From positions 186,001 through 250,000 of the forward strand of contig JAUYAU010000004.1 of NCBI GenBank assembly GCA_030693335.1: DNA of 64,000 nt. Reading direction: 5' to 3'. The stretch comes from Sulfuricurvum sp. Lineage in GTDB: Bacteria; Campylobacterota; Campylobacteria; Campylobacterales; Sulfurimonadaceae. Of the stretch, positions 643 to 64,000 are shown piece by piece (position 1 is the stretch's first letter; the number at the start of each line of letters is the position of its first letter). The notes below the pieces were generated by a model, which was not told the origin of the DNA, made no database searches, and worked only from the letters and a program-made list of their open reading frames with translations. The position numbers were made by a program, and so were the translations under genes.

Positions 643-2841
643 GTGAGTTCTATACAAAATTTATTTCATTCCATTTTGCGCTGCGGGATACATCCTGATG
701 ATACCGTAAAAATAAAGCTGCAAAAAGAAATATTGACGCTTCTTCCTATTATTGTAGGTATTGCCGGGGCAATATGGGGAAGCGTCTATTTTGTATTTGG
801 GCACTACCTGTCTGCTTCTATCCCTCTCTTTTACTCGGTAATATCCGTATTGAGTCTGTTATATGTAAACTATACAAAAAGTACAACATTTTTACTCCCT
901 TCTCAACTCACTCTTCTCGTCTCCCTGCCTTTCCTCCTTATGTGGTCTCTGGGCGGTTTTGCAGCAGGAAGCTATGTTATGATATGGGCTTTTTATGCTC
1001 CATTGACGGCTATGGCTTTTTCAAAAAAGTATTTTAATCTCTGGTTCATCCTATTTATCCTACTAACTGTCATCTCCTTGCTTATAAACGATAGCCTCGC
1101 GGATCATGTCCGCAAACTCCCGGCCCTAACGATAGATATCTTTACAGCCCTTAATATCATCGCAGGTTTTGGCGGTATCTTACATCTTGTAAACCACTAT
1201 ATTCAAGAAAAAGATGTCCTAGAAGATGCATCGAACAAACTATTATTGGAACAAAATGCATTGTTGTCATTGTTTGACAAAGGTGATTCCGTCTTGTTTA
1301 AATGGAAAAATGAAGAAGGATGGCCCGTTGAATACGTCTCCGGAAATGCTGAGAAATTACTCACCTATTCTGTGGATGATTTCCTATCGCACCATGTCAC
1401 TTACGCCTCCTGCATTCATCAAGATGATATCGGGCACGTCATAGAAGAAGTATTGGAAGCCATAAAAGAAAACAAGGACTTTTTCAAGCATGATCCCTAC
1501 AGAATCATCACAAAAGAGAATAAAATCAGATGGGTGCTGGACTATACCGTCACCGAAAAAGACAAACAGGGCAATATTCTCTATTTTATAGGCTACATTA
1601 ACGATATCACCAAGAATAAAGAAAATGAAATCGCATTGGAAAAAGCCAAAGAAAACGCAGACAAAGCCAATCAAGCAAAATCAGAATTTTTAGCCAACAT
1701 GAGCCATGAAATCCGAACACCGCTCAATGGAATCATCGGTCTCACCAATTTAACTCTAAAAACAGATCTAGACACAGTTCAAAGAGATTATCTGAGCAAA
1801 GCGATAAATTCTTCAAAAGCTCTGTTAAGCATCATCAATGACATTCTTGATTATTCTAAAATCGAAGCCAATAAACTGGAAATAGAAGCCATTGCATTTA
1901 CACTGGATACGATATTGCGCAATCTGTCTGATCTCTTTGGTTATCAGGGTCATGAAAAAGGTCTTGACTTGTCCTATCGTATAGCACCAAATGTCCCCAA
2001 TTCTCTACTCGGAGATCCCTTTAGAATTACCCAAGTACTTACGAATCTTATAGGCAATGCAATCAAATTTACCAAGCAAGGGAAAATTGAGACCAATGTA
2101 ACGCTCTTAGATCACAAGGATAAGACTGTAAAATTAATGTTCAGCGTCAAAGACAACGGAATAGGAATTCCCAAAGAACAGCAAGAACATCTGTTCAATG
2201 CCTTCAGCCAAGTGGATGCATCCAATACCCGGAAATATGGCGGGACAGGCCTTGGGCTGACAATCTCAAAACAACTGGTTTCTCTTATGGGTGGGGACAT
2301 GAGTGTTGAGAGCCAAGAAGGTGTCGGAAGTGAATTTTCTTTTACCCTTGAATTTCAATACACACAGCAAGAGAGCCTCCCTTTCACTTCAAAACGTGAA
2401 GAAAAAGAGTTGTTAATCACAGAAAAGTTCTATGCGCATAAACCGTACAGTGATGATTTCAGTGTAACGGGAAAAATACTGCTGGTTGAAGACAATGAAG
2501 TAAACCAACTCGTTGGGCAAGCCAGTCTTGAACAGTTTGGACTGACCGTAGTCATAGCGGAAAATGGACTCATTGGCGTACAAAAAGCGCAAGAAGAAAA
2601 ATTTGACATTATCTTTATGGACTTGCAAATGCCTATTATGGATGGGTTCAAAGCAACTCTAAAAATACGAGAATTTGATAAGACCACTCCCATAATAGCG
2701 TTAAGTGCCGCCGTTATGCTAAAAGACAAAGAGCGAACGCAAGAAGTAGGGATGAATGAACACATTTCAAAACCCTTTGATTTAAATCAACTAAAAGACG
2801 TTGTACGTAAATATTTAGATCCAAAACGGTTCAGTGCCTAA
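643..2841 (+). CDS. membrane hybrid histidine kinase (TM-PAS-HisKA-HATPase-REC)
   Basis: A 732-residue sensor kinase. Residues about 28-190 hold roughly six hydrophobic helices, followed by a PAS-like domain (205-330) ending in a PAC-like IGYINDITK. The HisKA H-box [13 protein letters not shown] puts the phospho-accepting histidine at H355. The ATPase has an N-box [17 protein letters not shown] and [10 protein letters not shown]. The C-terminal receiver has phospho-acceptor D660 in [10 protein letters not shown]. It probably autophosphorylates and passes phosphate to its own receiver, then to an unlinked output. The start is GTG at 643 after a TAAGGAT site. No output regulator is adjacent. 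The signal is unknown. Confidence 0.9.
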
Positions 2842-2897
2842 TAAGATTATTTTGCGTATTATAGATATTACAATTATAAGTTCATAGTGGAGCATAT

Positions 2898-4442
2898 ATG
2901 CACACAAACAATCTTCCTCAGCTTTTCGATCTTCTTGATACTTTGCCCAATCCCGCTACGCTTAATGCACTGGCTTATGACGACAATGGTATTGCTTATG
3001 ACAAGATTGTCTATGTTAATAAAAGCTTTATTAAGACGATAGGCTATACAGTAGAAGATATCCCCGACGATAACACATGGTTTGCAACGGCTTATCCGGA
3101 TACAGACTATCAGCACTATATCTCAAGCGAATGGCATAAAGCGGTCGAAAAAGCCAAGGCAGAGCAAACCGATCTTATCGGATTTCCAGCCAAAGTTCAC
3201 TGCAAAGATGGAGAAGACCGCTGGTTTAGCATTACAACGCAATTAACGCATACTATTGACGACCAATACAGAACCATTATCTTTGTTCAAACACAGTCAC
3301 CCAGCGAGATTAAGCTTCAACTGGATAAAAAGTCGTTGGACTTATTGCAAGAAAAATGGCTACTCAAGACGATCATCGATACCGCACCGGTACGGATCTT
3401 TTGGAAAGATGAAGAAGGCGTTTATCTAGGATGCAATGAAGCATTTTTACACGACGCCGGGTTAACAGACGAGAGCCAAATCGTCGGAAAGAACGATTTC
3501 GATATGATCTGGAAGAAAGATGCCAAACGCTTTAGGGAAGATGACAGACGCGTACGGGAATCAGGTATTCCTGAACTCAGCTTCCTAGAAAGACAACCTC
3601 ACGATGACGGCAAGGATCTGATACTTTCTACGTCCAAAGTTCCCTTGATTGACGCTGCAGGAAAGACGATAGGAATTTTAGGGCTTTATCACGATATCAC
3701 GAAAGAGTTTGAGTCCAAAGAAGCACTCAAAGAAAAAGACAAACTTTTACTGGCTCAATCACGTCAAGCTGCCATGGGAGAAATGCTTTCTATGATCGCT
3801 CATCAGTGGAGACAGCCTCTTAGCAGTATTACGGCAGTAGTGACTACGATCCAGGTCCAGCAAACCTTAGGTAACAGCACGATGGAGGGTCTAACTAAGC
3901 AATTAGAAGCTATCACACATCAAATAGAATATCTTTCAAGAACGATAACGGATTTCAGTAACTTCTATAAAAAAGACAAAAACAAACAACAAGTACAGCC
4001 CCGTGAAGTAGTGGACCACGCCCTAAGACTGATTACAAAGCTTTTGGAAAACAATAACATTCAATTGCGCGATTCATGTCTTTCTACGAAGACCTTTTAT
4101 GCTTTTCCAAATGAACTTCAGCATGTTTTTATCAATCTTATAAAAAATGCCGCCGATGTGCTTATAGAAAGCAACAAAGAGGAAAAATGGATCAGTATCT
4201 TATGTCAAGATGATACTGAGTTTATAACTTTTGAGATTAGTGATAATGGCGGTGGGATTGACAAATCATTAATAGACCGGATTTTTGAGCCGTACTTCTC
4301 AACCAAACATGAAAAGAATGGTACGGGGTTAGGACTTTACATGAGTAAAACAATCATAGAAAAGAATCTTGGAGGTACATTAAGTTGTAAAAATAGCAGT
4401 GTTGGTGCTGTCTTTACAATAAGACTTCCAATAGTTAACTAA
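2898..4442 (+). CDS. cytosolic PAS-PAS histidine kinase
   Basis: A 514-residue kinase with no membrane segment. Two PAS domains (about 1-130 and 150-275) precede a dimerisation domain with the H-box MIAHQWRQPLSSI, phospho-accepting H302. This HQWRQP form is common in Campylobacterota orphan kinases. The ATPase has NLIKNAADVL, DNGGGI and GTGLGLYMSK motifs at about 400-514. It has no receiver, and no response regulator is nearby, so its partner is probably elsewhere or is the receiver of the preceding hybrid kinase. It starts 56 bases after that gene, with GTGGAG at the ribosome site. The pair may form one signalling unit (inference). Confidence 0.88.
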   Translation: MHTNNLPQLFDLLDTLPNPATLNALAYDDNGIAYDKIVYVNKSFIKTIGYTVEDIPDDNTWFATAYPDTDYQHYISSEWHKAVEKAKAEQTDLIGFPAKVHCKDGEDRWFSITTQLTHTIDDQYRTIIFVQTQSPSEIKLQLDKKSLDLLQEKWLLKTIIDTAPVRIFWKDEEGVYLGCNEAFLHDAGLTDESQIVGKNDFDMIWKKDAKRFREDDRRVRESGIPELSFLERQPHDDGKDLILSTSKVPLIDAAGKTIGILGLYHDITKEFESKEALKEKDKLLLAQSRQAAMGEMLSMIAHQWRQPLSSITAVVTTIQVQQTLGNSTMEGLTKQLEAITHQIEYLSRTITDFSNFYKKDKNKQQVQPREVVDHALRLITKLLENNNIQLRDSCLSTKTFYAFPNELQHVFINLIKNAADVLIESNKEEKWISILCQDDTEFITFEISDNGGGIDKSLIDRIFEPYFSTKHEKNGTGLGLYMSKTIIEKNLGGTLSCKNSSVGAVFTIRLPIVN

Positions 4443-58928: not shown

Positions 58929-59426
58929 TTATCGGAAGTTCTCAAATACAAGCGGAGCTTCCCATTCCATCGCTTTGATGTGTGCCATGATTTTTTGAAG
59001 CTCATCAATTTGTTTGGATTTTACACGGATGTATTCACCCTCAATGACTGCAGAAGCTTTTGTTTTGAGGTTTTTGATTTCAGCAATAATCTTTTTCGCC
59101 TCTTTGGCCTCAATCGTATCGACGATTTTATACGTAGCTTTACGAGACCCGCCGCTCGCATCTTCTGTCTTCAGTTCTTCAAGCGCTTTGGAAGAAAGCC
59201 CGCGCTTGATGAGTTTTCCAATAACAATGTCTTTGAGTGCGTCGAGTTTGTTATCGCTTGAAGCGAGTAAAACGAGTTGTTTTTCTTTTTCGCGGTAATT
59301 GATTTCATAGGTAACCCCTTTGAAATCGTAGCGCCCGATAACCTCTTTTTCAGATTGGGCCATCGCGTCTTTAAACGCCTGTAAATCAATTTTTGCAGAA
59401 ATATCCATAGAGTGTTCTGATGCCAT
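58929..59426 (-). CDS. yajQ: YajQ-family nucleotide-binding protein
   Basis: 165 residues of the YajQ family (about 163 usually). 'SEKEVIGRYDFKGVTYEI' and 'SASRVIEG'-like 'KASAVIEGEYIRVKSKQIDELQ' are the family blocks. Family members bind cyclic di-GMP or nucleotides. It sits next to an HD-GYP gene, suggesting c-di-GMP links (inference). Confidence 0.88.
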   Translation of the reverse strand: MASEHSMDISAKIDLQAFKDAMAQSEKEVIGRYDFKGVTYEINYREKEKQLVLLASSDNKLDALKDIVIGKLIKRGLSSKALEELKTEDASGGSRKATYKIVDTIEAKEAKKIIAEIKNLKTKASAVIEGEYIRVKSKQIDELQKIMAHIKAMEWEAPLVFENFR

Positions 59427-59476: not shown

Positions 59477-60178
59477 TTAAAACATAGGTGAGCCAAAGTC
59501 CAAGCCGCCGCCAAAGTTCATATTGGGGTCCATATAGCCTAACATAGAACTTTTGGTCCGCAACATTGTGATGTCTTGCTTGGGAGCGATCCCTTGAGGG
59601 CACACGGGGACACATTCACCGCACAGCGTACAGTCCCAAATGCCGTTGCTTTGTACCGCGGCTATCTTAGCGTCACTGAGCGTTTGTCGAGGGTCACTGA
59701 CATAACGCCAAACACGCGTGAGGGCAAAGGGGCCGATAAAATCAGGATTGACCGCATAAACGGGACAAGCACTGTAGCACGCCGTACATAAAATACAGTC
59801 ACTTTGCGTTTCGATTCCATGCATTGCTTCTTCACTGACATTCCCCTCACGTGAGCATTCACTCCAGGTATTTGCCACACGGCTAAAATGCTCAACACAC
59901 GAACTCTCCACCACCAAATCACGGATAACGCTCGCATTGCGCATCGGCTCTACGAGATCACCGTCACTTGGTTTGTATTCACACATGAGCACTTCACGAC
60001 CATTTACTCGAACCGCACAGCTCCCGCACACGCCGCTGCGGCATCCTTGCGAGTAGGTGAGGGTTGAATCCATTTTCATTTTTACGTGATTGAGGATGGT
60101 GAGTAATGTTACTCCCGCTAACTCAATGTTATATTCTTGCGGTTCTTCTTTATGAGATCGTTGTACTAAAATTTTCAT
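59477..60178 (-). CDS. sdhB: succinate dehydrogenase/fumarate reductase iron-sulfur subunit
   Basis: 233 residues. N-terminal ferredoxin domain with CRSGVCGSC and a fourth Cys in LMCEY ([2Fe-2S]), then two clusters: CILCTACYSACP and CTLCGECVPVCP. In classical enzymes the second position of the third motif is not Cys and gives [3Fe-4S]; here all four Cys are present, so a second [4Fe-4S] is likely. This is seen in SdhE-type enzymes. The ATG overlaps the stop of the acidic small ORF. No anchor subunit follows. Confidence 0.87.
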   Translation of the reverse strand: MKILVQRSHKEEPQEYNIELAGVTLLTILNHVKMKMDSTLTYSQGCRSGVCGSCAVRVNGREVLMCEYKPSDGDLVEPMRNASVIRDLVVESSCVEHFSRVANTWSECSREGNVSEEAMHGIETQSDCILCTACYSACPVYAVNPDFIGPFALTRVWRYVSDPRQTLSDAKIAAVQSNGIWDCTLCGECVPVCPQGIAPKQDITMLRTKSSMLGYMDPNMNFGGGLDFGSPMF

Positions 60179-60276
60179 CAGTCACACCACTCTCTTTCTT
60201 CGTCTTCATCGTCGTCGTAAAACTCATCCTCTTCTTCATTTTCTATACTCGTATTTATTCCATAAAATTTACACAT
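60178..60276 (-). CDS. acidic 32-aa small ORF between sdhA and sdhB
   Basis: ATG at 60274-60276, inside the end of sdhA, opens 32 codons: MCKFYGINTS, then an extremely acidic run of Glu/Asp with Tyr and Trp, ending REWCD. Its TGA at 60178-60180 overlaps the sdhB ATG (TGATG), so it would be coupled to it. It overlaps the sdhA end by 22 bases. AGAGGA lies about 10 bases upstream. A 10-residue gap filled by two Cys and a very acidic run is unusual; no homologue recognised. Confidence 0.5.
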   Translation of the reverse strand: MCKFYGINTSIENEEEDEFYDDDEDEEREWCD

Positions 60277-61856
60277 ACTACGCCATCCTCTCTCCATATA
60301 ATCGTGTGCGTTCCAAACAACTCGTCATTTCGCATAGGAACATCACTACGATAATGAGCCCCTCGGCTCTCACTGCGACGAATCGCACACGTTGCAATAA
60401 TCTCTGCCAACTCAATCTTATTGCCAAATTCGATAAACTCAACCAAATTCGTATTGCAAATCTTCGACTTATCCTTTGGACCCATCAACGGTAACTCTTT
60501 TTGCATCTGCTCGATCACATCAAGGACAGCTTTTAGCCCCGTATCCTCACGTACCAATCCCACATTGGCATAGAAGATCTCCGCTAAGCTCTCTTGCTTC
60601 TCATAAAAATCGATTCTGTTGCTAAACGACATCGCCTCGCTGATAAAATCAGTGTCTTTTGAAAGTTGATTATTTTCTAGTGTTGATACAGGTTTGTTCT
60701 CTCCAAACTCCGCCGCAGTTTTTCCGCAATGGCGACCGAACACTACAAGTTCCAAAAGCGAGTTTCCCCCCAAACGGTTCGCCCCATGTGTTTTGTGATT
60801 CGCACACTCTCCCACAGCAAACAAACCGCTAACACTTGTCATGCATTCGTTATTGACTTCTATTCCACCCATACTGTAATGCGCTGCAGGTTTAATCGGA
60901 ATAAGATCATGCACCGGATCGATCCCCTCATAGATCTGTGCCAGTTTACGTTCCTGAGGCAGTTCATGGCTAATAAATTCTTCTCCCAAATGGCGAATAT
61001 CCAAATACACCGCACCACCCGCTGTAATTTCATCATGAATTGCTCTCGCCACCACATCACGAGGTCCTAGCTCGTCGGTAAAACGCTCATGCTTGGCATT
61101 GAGCAAAAACCCGCCTGCTCCGCGTGCACTCTCCGAGATTAGAATCGAAGAATTTTTAAGTGCCGTAGGATGAAACTGAATAAACTCCAAATCGGCCAAC
61201 CTCGCGCCCGCACGTATTGCAGCAGCGATCCCATCGCCCGTACTGCCTACAGAATTTGTGGAGTGCTTACCGTACAATGCCCCGTATCCACCCGTGGCCA
61301 TGATTACCGCATCTGCCCGTATCTCTTCCACATCGCCGGTCAGGATATTTAGGCACGTCGCCCCTAACGCACGGTTTGTTGTTTCATCCACGATAATATT
61401 GAGCAAAAATCGCTCATTCAAGAACATAATCCCCGCTTTGAGACATTGATCATACAGCGTATGAAGCAGTTTTAACCCTGTATAGTCTTGTGCATAACAT
61501 GCTCTGGGTGCAGATGCTCCGCCCAAACGTCTGCGCGCTATCTCACCCGATGCATCCCGACTAAACGGAAGTCCAAGCGTGTTGCACCAACGCACCGCAT
61601 CAGGAGCATTTTCGCACAAAAACGCAATCTGCGATTCATCCCCCAGCCCTGCACTGGACTTCAACGTATCAGCCATATGGTTCGCAACCGAATCCTCATT
61701 GCCTAAAACCGCATTCATCCCCCCCTGCGCCATCGAGGTCTGAGAGCGTGTCGGAAGCGTTTTGCTCATAACGATAACCTCTGCGCCCGCTTCATGTGCC
61801 GACAGTGCGCTCACCAATCCGGCACCTCCACCGCCGATAATTAATACTTTCGCCAT
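60255..61856 (-). CDS. sdhA: succinate dehydrogenase/fumarate reductase flavoprotein subunit (divergent)
   Basis: 533 residues. FAD site IGGGGAGLVSAL, active-site SESARGAGGFLLN, HYSMGGIEVN and RLGGNSLLELVVFG, and C-terminal RRSESRGAHYRSD. The usual covalent flavin His in TRSHT is replaced by Gln (TRSQT, Q39), so FAD may be noncovalent as in TfrA or NadB. It is shorter than classical SdhA (about 590). The linked iron-sulfur subunit excludes L-aspartate oxidase. No E or C subunit nearby. Confidence 0.85.
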   Translation of the reverse strand: MAKVLIIGGGGAGLVSALSAHEAGAEVIVMSKTLPTRSQTSMAQGGMNAVLGNEDSVANHMADTLKSSAGLGDESQIAFLCENAPDAVRWCNTLGLPFSRDASGEIARRRLGGASAPRACYAQDYTGLKLLHTLYDQCLKAGIMFLNERFLLNIIVDETTNRALGATCLNILTGDVEEIRADAVIMATGGYGALYGKHSTNSVGSTGDGIAAAIRAGARLADLEFIQFHPTALKNSSILISESARGAGGFLLNAKHERFTDELGPRDVVARAIHDEITAGGAVYLDIRHLGEEFISHELPQERKLAQIYEGIDPVHDLIPIKPAAHYSMGGIEVNNECMTSVSGLFAVGECANHKTHGANRLGGNSLLELVVFGRHCGKTAAEFGENKPVSTLENNQLSKDTDFISEAMSFSNRIDFYEKQESLAEIFYANVGLVREDTGLKAVLDVIEQMQKELPLMGPKDKSKICNTNLVEFIEFGNKIELAEIIATCAIRRSESRGAHYRSDVPMRNDELFGTHTIIWREDGVVCVNFME

Positions 61857-63252: not shown

Positions 63253-64000
63253 ATGAATACTCAAACCCTCTTATCTTTATTAGGCATCTATCTCTTCATC
63301 GCTGTCGGTTTCGGAGCCAAATGGACCTTCAAAGAAAAAATCGACGACCGTACCATTACCCTGCTGAGTGTCTATTTTTTACAAATCTTTCTCACCTTTT
63401 GGGGATTGCTCAAACGCCCCATCGATACCGAACTCTTACTCGCTCCATCAGTCTATCTGGCCATTACTCTAATAGCGCTGCTACTTATGATACCGCTCTC
63501 ACGACTGCTGTTTCGTGACACCAAAGAGCGCTCCATCGCCACCGTCGCGGCACTCATCGGCAATACTGGGAATTTGGGGATTCCACTTGGAATTGCTCTG
63601 TTTGGCGAACAGTGTGTCCCTTATCTGACCCTTATCAACCTGGTCAATGTCTTTGTGGTCTATACCATCGGGGTTTTCTATTATTCGCGCGGTGAATTCA
63701 GCGTGCGTGATTCACTTATCAATATCCTAAAACTACCGGTTCTTTGGGCAGCGATGGTGGCGATTATCCTTAACCTCATCGGATATATTCCAAGCGAGGC
63801 TGTGGATAAAACCCTGATGATGGGTGCGTATGCTTCTATGACCATGCAGTTGGTGTTGTTTGGGATTTATTTGTACGGGATAAAATTTAAAGAGATCAAC
63901 AAACGGCTTACGCTGTGGATCAGCAGTAGCAAGTTTATCCTCATCCCCGCTCTTGCCTGGATCGTTTTGGGACAAATTGACATGGAAAGTTCGGTAAAAG
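63253..64000 (+). CDS. AEC-family permease, 3' end beyond the window
   Basis: 249 codons visible from ATG 63253 to the right edge, open to the end. Eight or more helices; 'NTGNLGIPLGIALFGEQ' is the auxin-efflux-carrier/malonate-permease signature. Full AEC proteins are about 300 residues, so some 50 are missing. Substrate unknown. Starts 118 bases after the divergent porin. Confidence 0.8.
   Translation, partial: MNTQTLLSLLGIYLFIAVGFGAKWTFKEKIDDRTITLLSVYFLQIFLTFWGLLKRPIDTELLLAPSVYLAITLIALLLMIPLSRLLFRDTKERSIATVAALIGNTGNLGIPLGIALFGEQCVPYLTLINLVNVFVVYTIGVFYYSRGEFSVRDSLINILKLPVLWAAMVAIILNLIGYIPSEAVDKTLMMGAYASMTMQLVLFGIYLYGIKFKEINKRLTLWISSSKFILIPALAWIVLGQIDMESSVK

Follow-up and report, generated by a model that had tools for sequence, protein, structure and literature searches.

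A clade of two-subunit SdhA/SdhB-like enzymes in Campylobacterota with glutamine at the flavin-histidine position, a candidate soluble fumarate reductase

Background

What does an SdhA/SdhB pair do when its flavoprotein has Gln at the position of the flavin-linked His and no anchor gene follows? The question is raised by the window analysed here, a stretch of 64,000 nucleotides from Sulfuricurvum sp. (GenBank assembly GCA_030693335.1, contig JAUYAU010000004.1). A first-pass annotation, made from the letters of the window, had described the pair as a divergent fumarate reductase/dehydrogenase whose membrane link lies elsewhere. The fumarate reductase of the reductive TCA cycle in sulfur-oxidising Campylobacterota, together with its electron donor, is a proposal without biochemistry in the literature covered. 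If the flavin bond is missing throughout a clade of soluble two-subunit enzymes, a fumarate reductase that works one way is to be expected. The features of the locus are as follows.

58929-59426, (-) strand: yajQ (NF003819), a recurrent downstream neighbour, outside the enzyme
59477-60178, (-) strand: sdhB/frdB-like iron-sulfur subunit gene, 233 aa
59597-59632, (-) strand: second CxxCxxCxxxCP sequence motif of SdhB, CTLCGECVPVCP, with an extra Cys relative to the usual 3Fe-4S site
59762-59797, (-) strand: first CxxCxxCxxxCP sequence motif of SdhB, CILCTACYSACP
60178-60276, (-) strand: acidic microprotein ORF, 32 aa, MCKFYGINTSIENEEEDEFYDDDEDEEREWCD, with overlaps of 22 nt (sdhA) and 1 nt (sdhB)
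60255-61856, (-) strand: sdhA/frdA-like flavoprotein gene, 533 aa, with Gln39 at the flavin-His position

Results

Flavin site of the window SdhA

The translated flavoprotein carries SKTLPTRSQTSMAQGG at the flavin site. Gln39 is encoded by CAG (61742-61740) and aligns with His45 of E. coli SdhA, which we take to be the flavin-linked residue. Codon and alignment thus agree with the first-pass annotation that Gln stands in place of the SdhA/FrdA flavin His, and the His required for covalent FAD is absent. The protein contains the Pfam domains FAD_binding_2 (E 1.9e-97) and Succ_DH_flav_C (E 3.2e-26). It scores 553.5 bits against TIGR01812, narrowly below the curated cut-off of 567.3, and 429.6 bits against MFR_Fp_SdhA, under the cut-off of 1100. 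Its AlphaFold model (mean pLDDT 91.9) finds its best structural match in E. coli FrdA (Z 55, 1.8 Å over 528 residues). The N-terminus starts MAKVLIIGGGGAG in the translation of the ORF, without an extension and so without a Tat signal.

Named relatives of the gene at 78-84% identity are from Sulfuricurvum MAGs and a 'Helicobacteraceae' MAG. An orthologue was found in 35 of the 36 other same-genus genomes searched, and Gln39 is invariant in all 15 aligned orthologues; a chance or sequencing change was rejected on these grounds.

Phylogeny and conserved residues

A tree of 103 rows, built by a quick method with a midpoint root, places 37 rows in a clade with the window gene (SH-aLRT 99). The named rows of this Gln-type clade are all Campylobacterota, and the remainder belong to the same order. 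The His-type clade (56 rows, SH-aLRT 100) stands apart from it, and an Asn group from nif regions (six rows, SH-aLRT 99), a two-row Asn group and NadB are also separate. Row L082 is truncated, and row L050 is a wrong slice of a 794-aa upstream read-through with an unreliable placement; the flavin site of L050 is Gln in the orthologue alignment.

Among the Gln-type rows with the column, the flavin site is Gln in 33 of 35 and Asn in two. In the His-type clade it is His in 52 of 56 rows, Ala in three and Gln in one. Since the His-type clade includes neither NadB nor the two other non-His groups, the Gln-type clade may never have had the His, and Gln at this site need not represent a loss. The first-pass wording of a His changed to Gln therefore stands for the residue, and its direction was an assumption.

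The non-His rows within the His-type clade (L113, L092, L126 and L141) have Gln in Peregrinibacteria or Ala in Sporomusa, Solidesulfovibrio and Campylobacter, and apparently reflect separate losses of the flavin His.

H242, R286, H354, R399 and E255 (E. coli SdhA numbering) are kept in every clade row with the column. We take these residues to form the dicarboxylate site, binding both carboxylates and giving the proton. F119, which presumably lines the substrate site, is replaced by Leu in 32 of 36 clade rows and by Met in three, with Phe retained in one; R140 is replaced by Tyr in 34 of 36; and Gln301/Glu302 are invariant (37/37). The clade-specific changes at F119 and R140 leave the substrate open. 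The first-pass label of a divergent fumarate reductase/dehydrogenase is supported on the fumarate reductase side.

SdhB and the missing anchor

SdhB has a 2Fe-2S motif in addition to the two CxxCxxCxxxCP motifs; both of the latter have four Cys, as first described. Both 4Fe motifs are present in 64 of 65 fetched SdhB loci at >=40% identity, a count that includes places fetched twice; the sole exception is L089, whose SdhB was only partly read. The absence of an sdhC, sdhD or CCG-type sdhE gene after sdhB also held: yajQ and, by eye, an HD-domain protein gene lie there instead. In the 23 named clade loci that were read, the 3 kb downstream contain no CCG gene, and inspection by eye found no anchor subunit gene among the neighbours of fetched relatives. 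A linked sdhC or sdhE in relatives, named by the first-pass annotation as evidence against its reading, was looked for and found in none of the fetched clade loci. One regex match in L089, a candidate linked CCG subunit, was rejected because it is SdhB itself.

In fetched clade loci, sdhA followed by sdhB is the usual order. Four genomes (G040, G047, G054 and G059) have no adjacent sdhB, and in all four, when checked, an sdhB was located on another contig (47-51% identity), which argues that A and B go together. The unlinked sdhB loci, read for partners, have unrelated neighbours and no partner gene common to them. Neighbours of Gln-type sdhAB vary among the fetched loci, and none of these loci has a linked donor gene.

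Two neighbouring features were also observed. In the window, an auxin efflux carrier-type transporter (PF03547) is encoded at 63253-63999, on the far side of the gene that precedes sdhA; in several relatives such a transporter gene is the direct upstream neighbour of Gln-type sdhA, on the opposite strand. In L078, FrdA and FrdC-like genes (1447-4283; by eye) lie ~2 kb upstream of Gln-type sdhAB, on the opposite strand.

Other SdhA-like, CCG and anchor genes of the genome

The genome searched (2.17 Mb, 18 contigs) has four long SdhA-like genes, including that of the window. One, on contig 8, is a His-type sdhA (PLRSHSGAAQGG) within a complete sdhABE operon, whose third gene is the only sdhE-like CCG gene of the genome and whose SdhB also has two 4Fe motifs. 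Another, on contig 3 (L014:5801-7468), has LRSNSAVASGG, which puts Asn at the flavin site, and is without an SdhB. It adjoins NifU-like and ferredoxin-like genes, apparently in a nif region (by eye), and joins other Campylobacterota in a group of its own in the tree. The fourth is NadB-like.

The first-pass annotation had proposed a genome-wide search for a CCG-domain E subunit or a cytochrome b. CCG-domain matches were found in two genes only, the sdhE of sdhABE and a 428-aa GlcF/GlpC-like protein, and neither is linked to the Gln-type pair. The genome has no match to Sdh_cyt (PF01127), for which 7 of 14 control genomes were positive by the same search. The 428-aa protein is similar to TfrB over the C-terminal part of the latter (E 3.8e-54). 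Its gene is present in 279 of the 298 genomes of the order, whether or not they encode the Gln enzyme, and the protein was rejected as a private partner. The claim that the membrane link lies elsewhere is thus weakened: an SdhE does exist, and it sits in a separate His-type sdhABE operon. No match to Sdh5 (PF03937), the E. coli-type flavinylation factor, was found in the genome, which says little about the Gln enzyme since the genome also has a His-type SdhA.

A conserved microprotein at the sdhA-sdhB junction

The 32-aa acidic ORF between sdhA and sdhB was missed by the first-pass annotation. An in-frame ATG at 60297 would extend it to 39 aa. A same-frame ORF ending E[RK]E[WY]CD is found at the junction in 30 of 32 same-genus genomes examined, out of 36 with the gene when the window's own is counted; L066 and L091, which may be the same assemblies as two others in view of identical microproteins, are left out of this count. 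L025 lacks the ORF, and in L032 it is degenerate. Lengths range from 27 to 85 aa, depending on the species and the start chosen. Related ORFs with a CCED motif occupy the same place in L068 (an Arcobacter MAG), L072 and genera g26 and g4. Of the family pattern 'CCED...EREWCD', the window copy keeps the EREWCD end and lacks the CCED part.

A profile built from 16 microproteins gave 12 matches in 298 genomes, at least five of them outside the profile, and all 12 lie at a Gln-type sdhA-sdhB junction by coordinates or sequence. The profile is not fully sensitive, as it missed G029, whose microprotein ORF is seen directly. The composition is 28% Glu and 20% Asp. The window, L068 and L072 microproteins have no family match in Pfam or NCBIfam, and for a coiled-coil form (L046) the only matches there are coiled-coil ones below threshold.

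Aligned codons differ at positions 1, 2 and 3 with frequencies of 0.21, 0.19 and 0.52 (18 pairs, no stops in frame). Whole ORFs were compared, since counts picked by motif fix amino acids through the search pattern. A mere leader or Shine-Dalgarno element was rejected because the third codon position varies most; the C-terminus is also kept in four species despite 121-135 extra bases before sdhB.

These extra bases lie between the microprotein stop and sdhB in L019, L033, L042 and L063. In three of the four they translate alike (SAVYC.WAS...KHSVSVVNRD.IPM) and look like a mobile repeat. In L018, L031 and L036, repeat-like inserts (PFVVSLS...) lie inside the microprotein ORF with the frame kept.

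Association with the reductive TCA cycle

A DNA pattern for the Gln motif matched 130 of 298 genomes of the order, 128 with fitting codons. Asn members, L076 and L100 among them, escape the pattern, so that the clade numbers at least 128. ATP-citrate lyase is present in 108 of the 128 Gln-motif genomes versus 50 of the 170 others, raw counts that are confounded by kinship. The lyase search matched 163 genomes, five of which (E > 1e-7) were scored as lacking it. Of the 20 Gln-motif genomes without the lyase, 15 belong to one family (f9) and three have weak matches only, scored as absent. A strict link to the reductive TCA cycle was rejected on account of these 20 genomes and the 50 lyase genomes without the motif, and such a role is therefore not general. 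In autotrophs the Gln enzyme likely serves the reductive TCA cycle, although this is not the whole story.

Discussion

Established by sequence are the Gln, the catalytic residues, the Cys motifs, the A/B pairing in the cases checked, the absence of a linked anchor and the coding nature of the microprotein. We lean, if only just, towards a whole explanation in which Gln-type SdhAB is a cytosolic two-subunit fumarate reductase, supplied by a low-potential soluble donor and aided by the microprotein. Its core is that the enzyme is probably a soluble, one-way fumarate reductase with non-covalent FAD. That the FAD is non-covalent is strongly suggested by Gln or Asn across the clade, in line with the expectation of the first-pass annotation. 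We hold with moderate confidence that fumarate to succinate is the main direction; a soluble donor and a role in succinate supply are put forward with weak to moderate confidence, and help from the microprotein only weakly.

Covalent attachment raises the potential of FAD, and non-covalent homologues only reduce fumarate, according to the accessible part of PMC9557727. We propose that FAD held without a covalent bond would have a low potential and that the enzyme would, as a consequence, work mainly from fumarate to succinate. The His alone does not set direction, since 8-methylmenaquinol:fumarate reductase (MFR) with an introduced His still did not oxidise succinate (PMC2680327, accessible part). 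Electrons from a soluble low-potential donor, not quinol, would enter through SdhB, and its predicted clusters, one 2Fe-2S and two 4Fe-4S, would carry them to FAD and fumarate in SdhA. The output would be cytosolic succinate, which in autotrophic members probably feeds the reductive TCA cycle, with the Gln-type enzyme working alongside the quinone-linked SdhABE. The small, acidic, Cys-containing protein translated between the subunits may help in Sulfuricurvum and some of its relatives.

How it may help is a matter of guesses. We consider it possible, although rather doubtful, that the enzyme has in the microprotein a third component of its own. As an assembly factor, it would pass SdhA on to SdhB in the absence of a covalent flavin; alternatively, as a docking or thiol-switch subunit, it would stand in for the anchor and recruit the soluble donor. 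If true, this would add a new class to the accessory proteins of complex II; as part of the enzyme, the microprotein would show how a complex II relative with two subunits is put together or supplied with electrons.

Gln-type SdhAB could instead exchange electrons with quinone by borrowing the contig 8 SdhE or the lone 428-aa CCG/4Fe-4S protein. Both are encoded in the genome, the latter resembles the C-terminal part of TfrB, and the SdhB of the sdhABE operon likewise has two 4Fe motifs. However, SdhE belongs to its own complete operon, the 428-aa gene is near-universal regardless of the Gln enzyme, and the fetched relatives have no anchor or CCG linkage. We regard this arrangement as unlikely, and a soluble enzyme is the simpler reading. 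We give a similarly low chance to an enzyme that reduces another dicarboxylate or an enoate, or works in the oxidative direction, with fumarate as a side substrate only. The substitutions at F119 and R140 in nearly all members and the invariant Gln301/Glu302 would suit such an enzyme, as would a D-2-hydroxyacid dehydrogenase gene upstream in several relatives, but that gene adjoins the pair in only some members, the residues taken to bind both carboxylates and give the proton are kept, and the predicted fold matches E. coli FrdA.

A second L-aspartate oxidase that acquired an SdhB is very improbable. NadB is soluble with non-covalent FAD (PMC9557727, accessible part), and the window SdhA matches the nadB model with E 2.9e-118. 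This match, at 395.7 bits, nevertheless falls under the 452.75 cut-off; the genome has its own NadB-like gene; Leu111 of the window SdhA corresponds to Glu in both NadB rows; and the tree separates the two. NadB identity was rejected on the score, the separate gene and the Leu111 site.

Among known systems, the soluble fumarate reductase that we favour shares several features with the MFR (sdhABE) of Wolinella and Campylobacter, from the same phylum, which also lacks the flavin His and has a fumarate site and SdhB. According to the accessible part of PMC2680327, the Wolinella MFR has Ala at the flavin site, binds FAD non-covalently and does not oxidise succinate, and changing the Ala to His gained the covalent bond but not succinate oxidation; MFR differs from the window enzyme by its Ala, a Tat signal and the SdhE anchor. 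In the tree, unlike the window gene, L141, a Campylobacter SdhA with Ala at this site, is nested in the His-type clade. Quinone-linked complex II (sdhABCD, frdABC, sdhABE) has a linked anchor, whereas the window and the fetched relatives do not.

The TfrAB thiol:fumarate reductase of methanogens is soluble with non-covalent FAD. TfrB combines SdhB with a CCG half in a 488-residue model; the window SdhB (233 aa) matches positions 5-220 and has no counterpart beyond 220. Hydrogenobacter reportedly has a soluble, NADH-dependent enzyme that reduces fumarate in the reductive TCA cycle (said to be described by Miura in 2008); the Gln-type enzyme resembles it in its proposed soluble role in that cycle. 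Two Aquificaceae SdhA rows (L086 and L093) have His, and identity with the Hydrogenobacter enzyme is not implied. The microprotein recalls SDHAF4, a small, flexible, disordered complex II assembly factor that acts on SDHA (PMC10784507, accessible part), by analogy only, with no sequence similarity claimed; the microprotein is acidic with Cys motifs.

The closest parallel is the two-subunit Frd for which a cytoplasmic location and a reductive TCA role have been put forward in the Zeitz epsilonproteobacterium and, citing Sievert 2008, in Sulfurimonas denitrificans (PMC4674564, accessible part). As in those organisms, adjacent sdhA and sdhB without a third enzyme subunit, the microprotein ORF apart, occur beside a three-subunit enzyme. 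Our search of the Zeitz genome found a two-gene FrdAB copy 53% identical to the window gene, with both 4Fe motifs but with Asn, not Gln, at the flavin site; its three-gene copy is a His-type sdhABE. The Zeitz FrdAB is thus a clade relative, and the two-subunit kind was already known. The accessible part of PMC4674564 mentions neither the flavin residue nor a microprotein, and neither the Gln nor the microprotein is described in the titles and abstract openings searched, most subscription papers being outside reach. As far as the literature searched goes, the two-subunit form, proposed as cytoplasmic, is known already, and the clade-wide flavin-site feature and the microprotein appear to be new.
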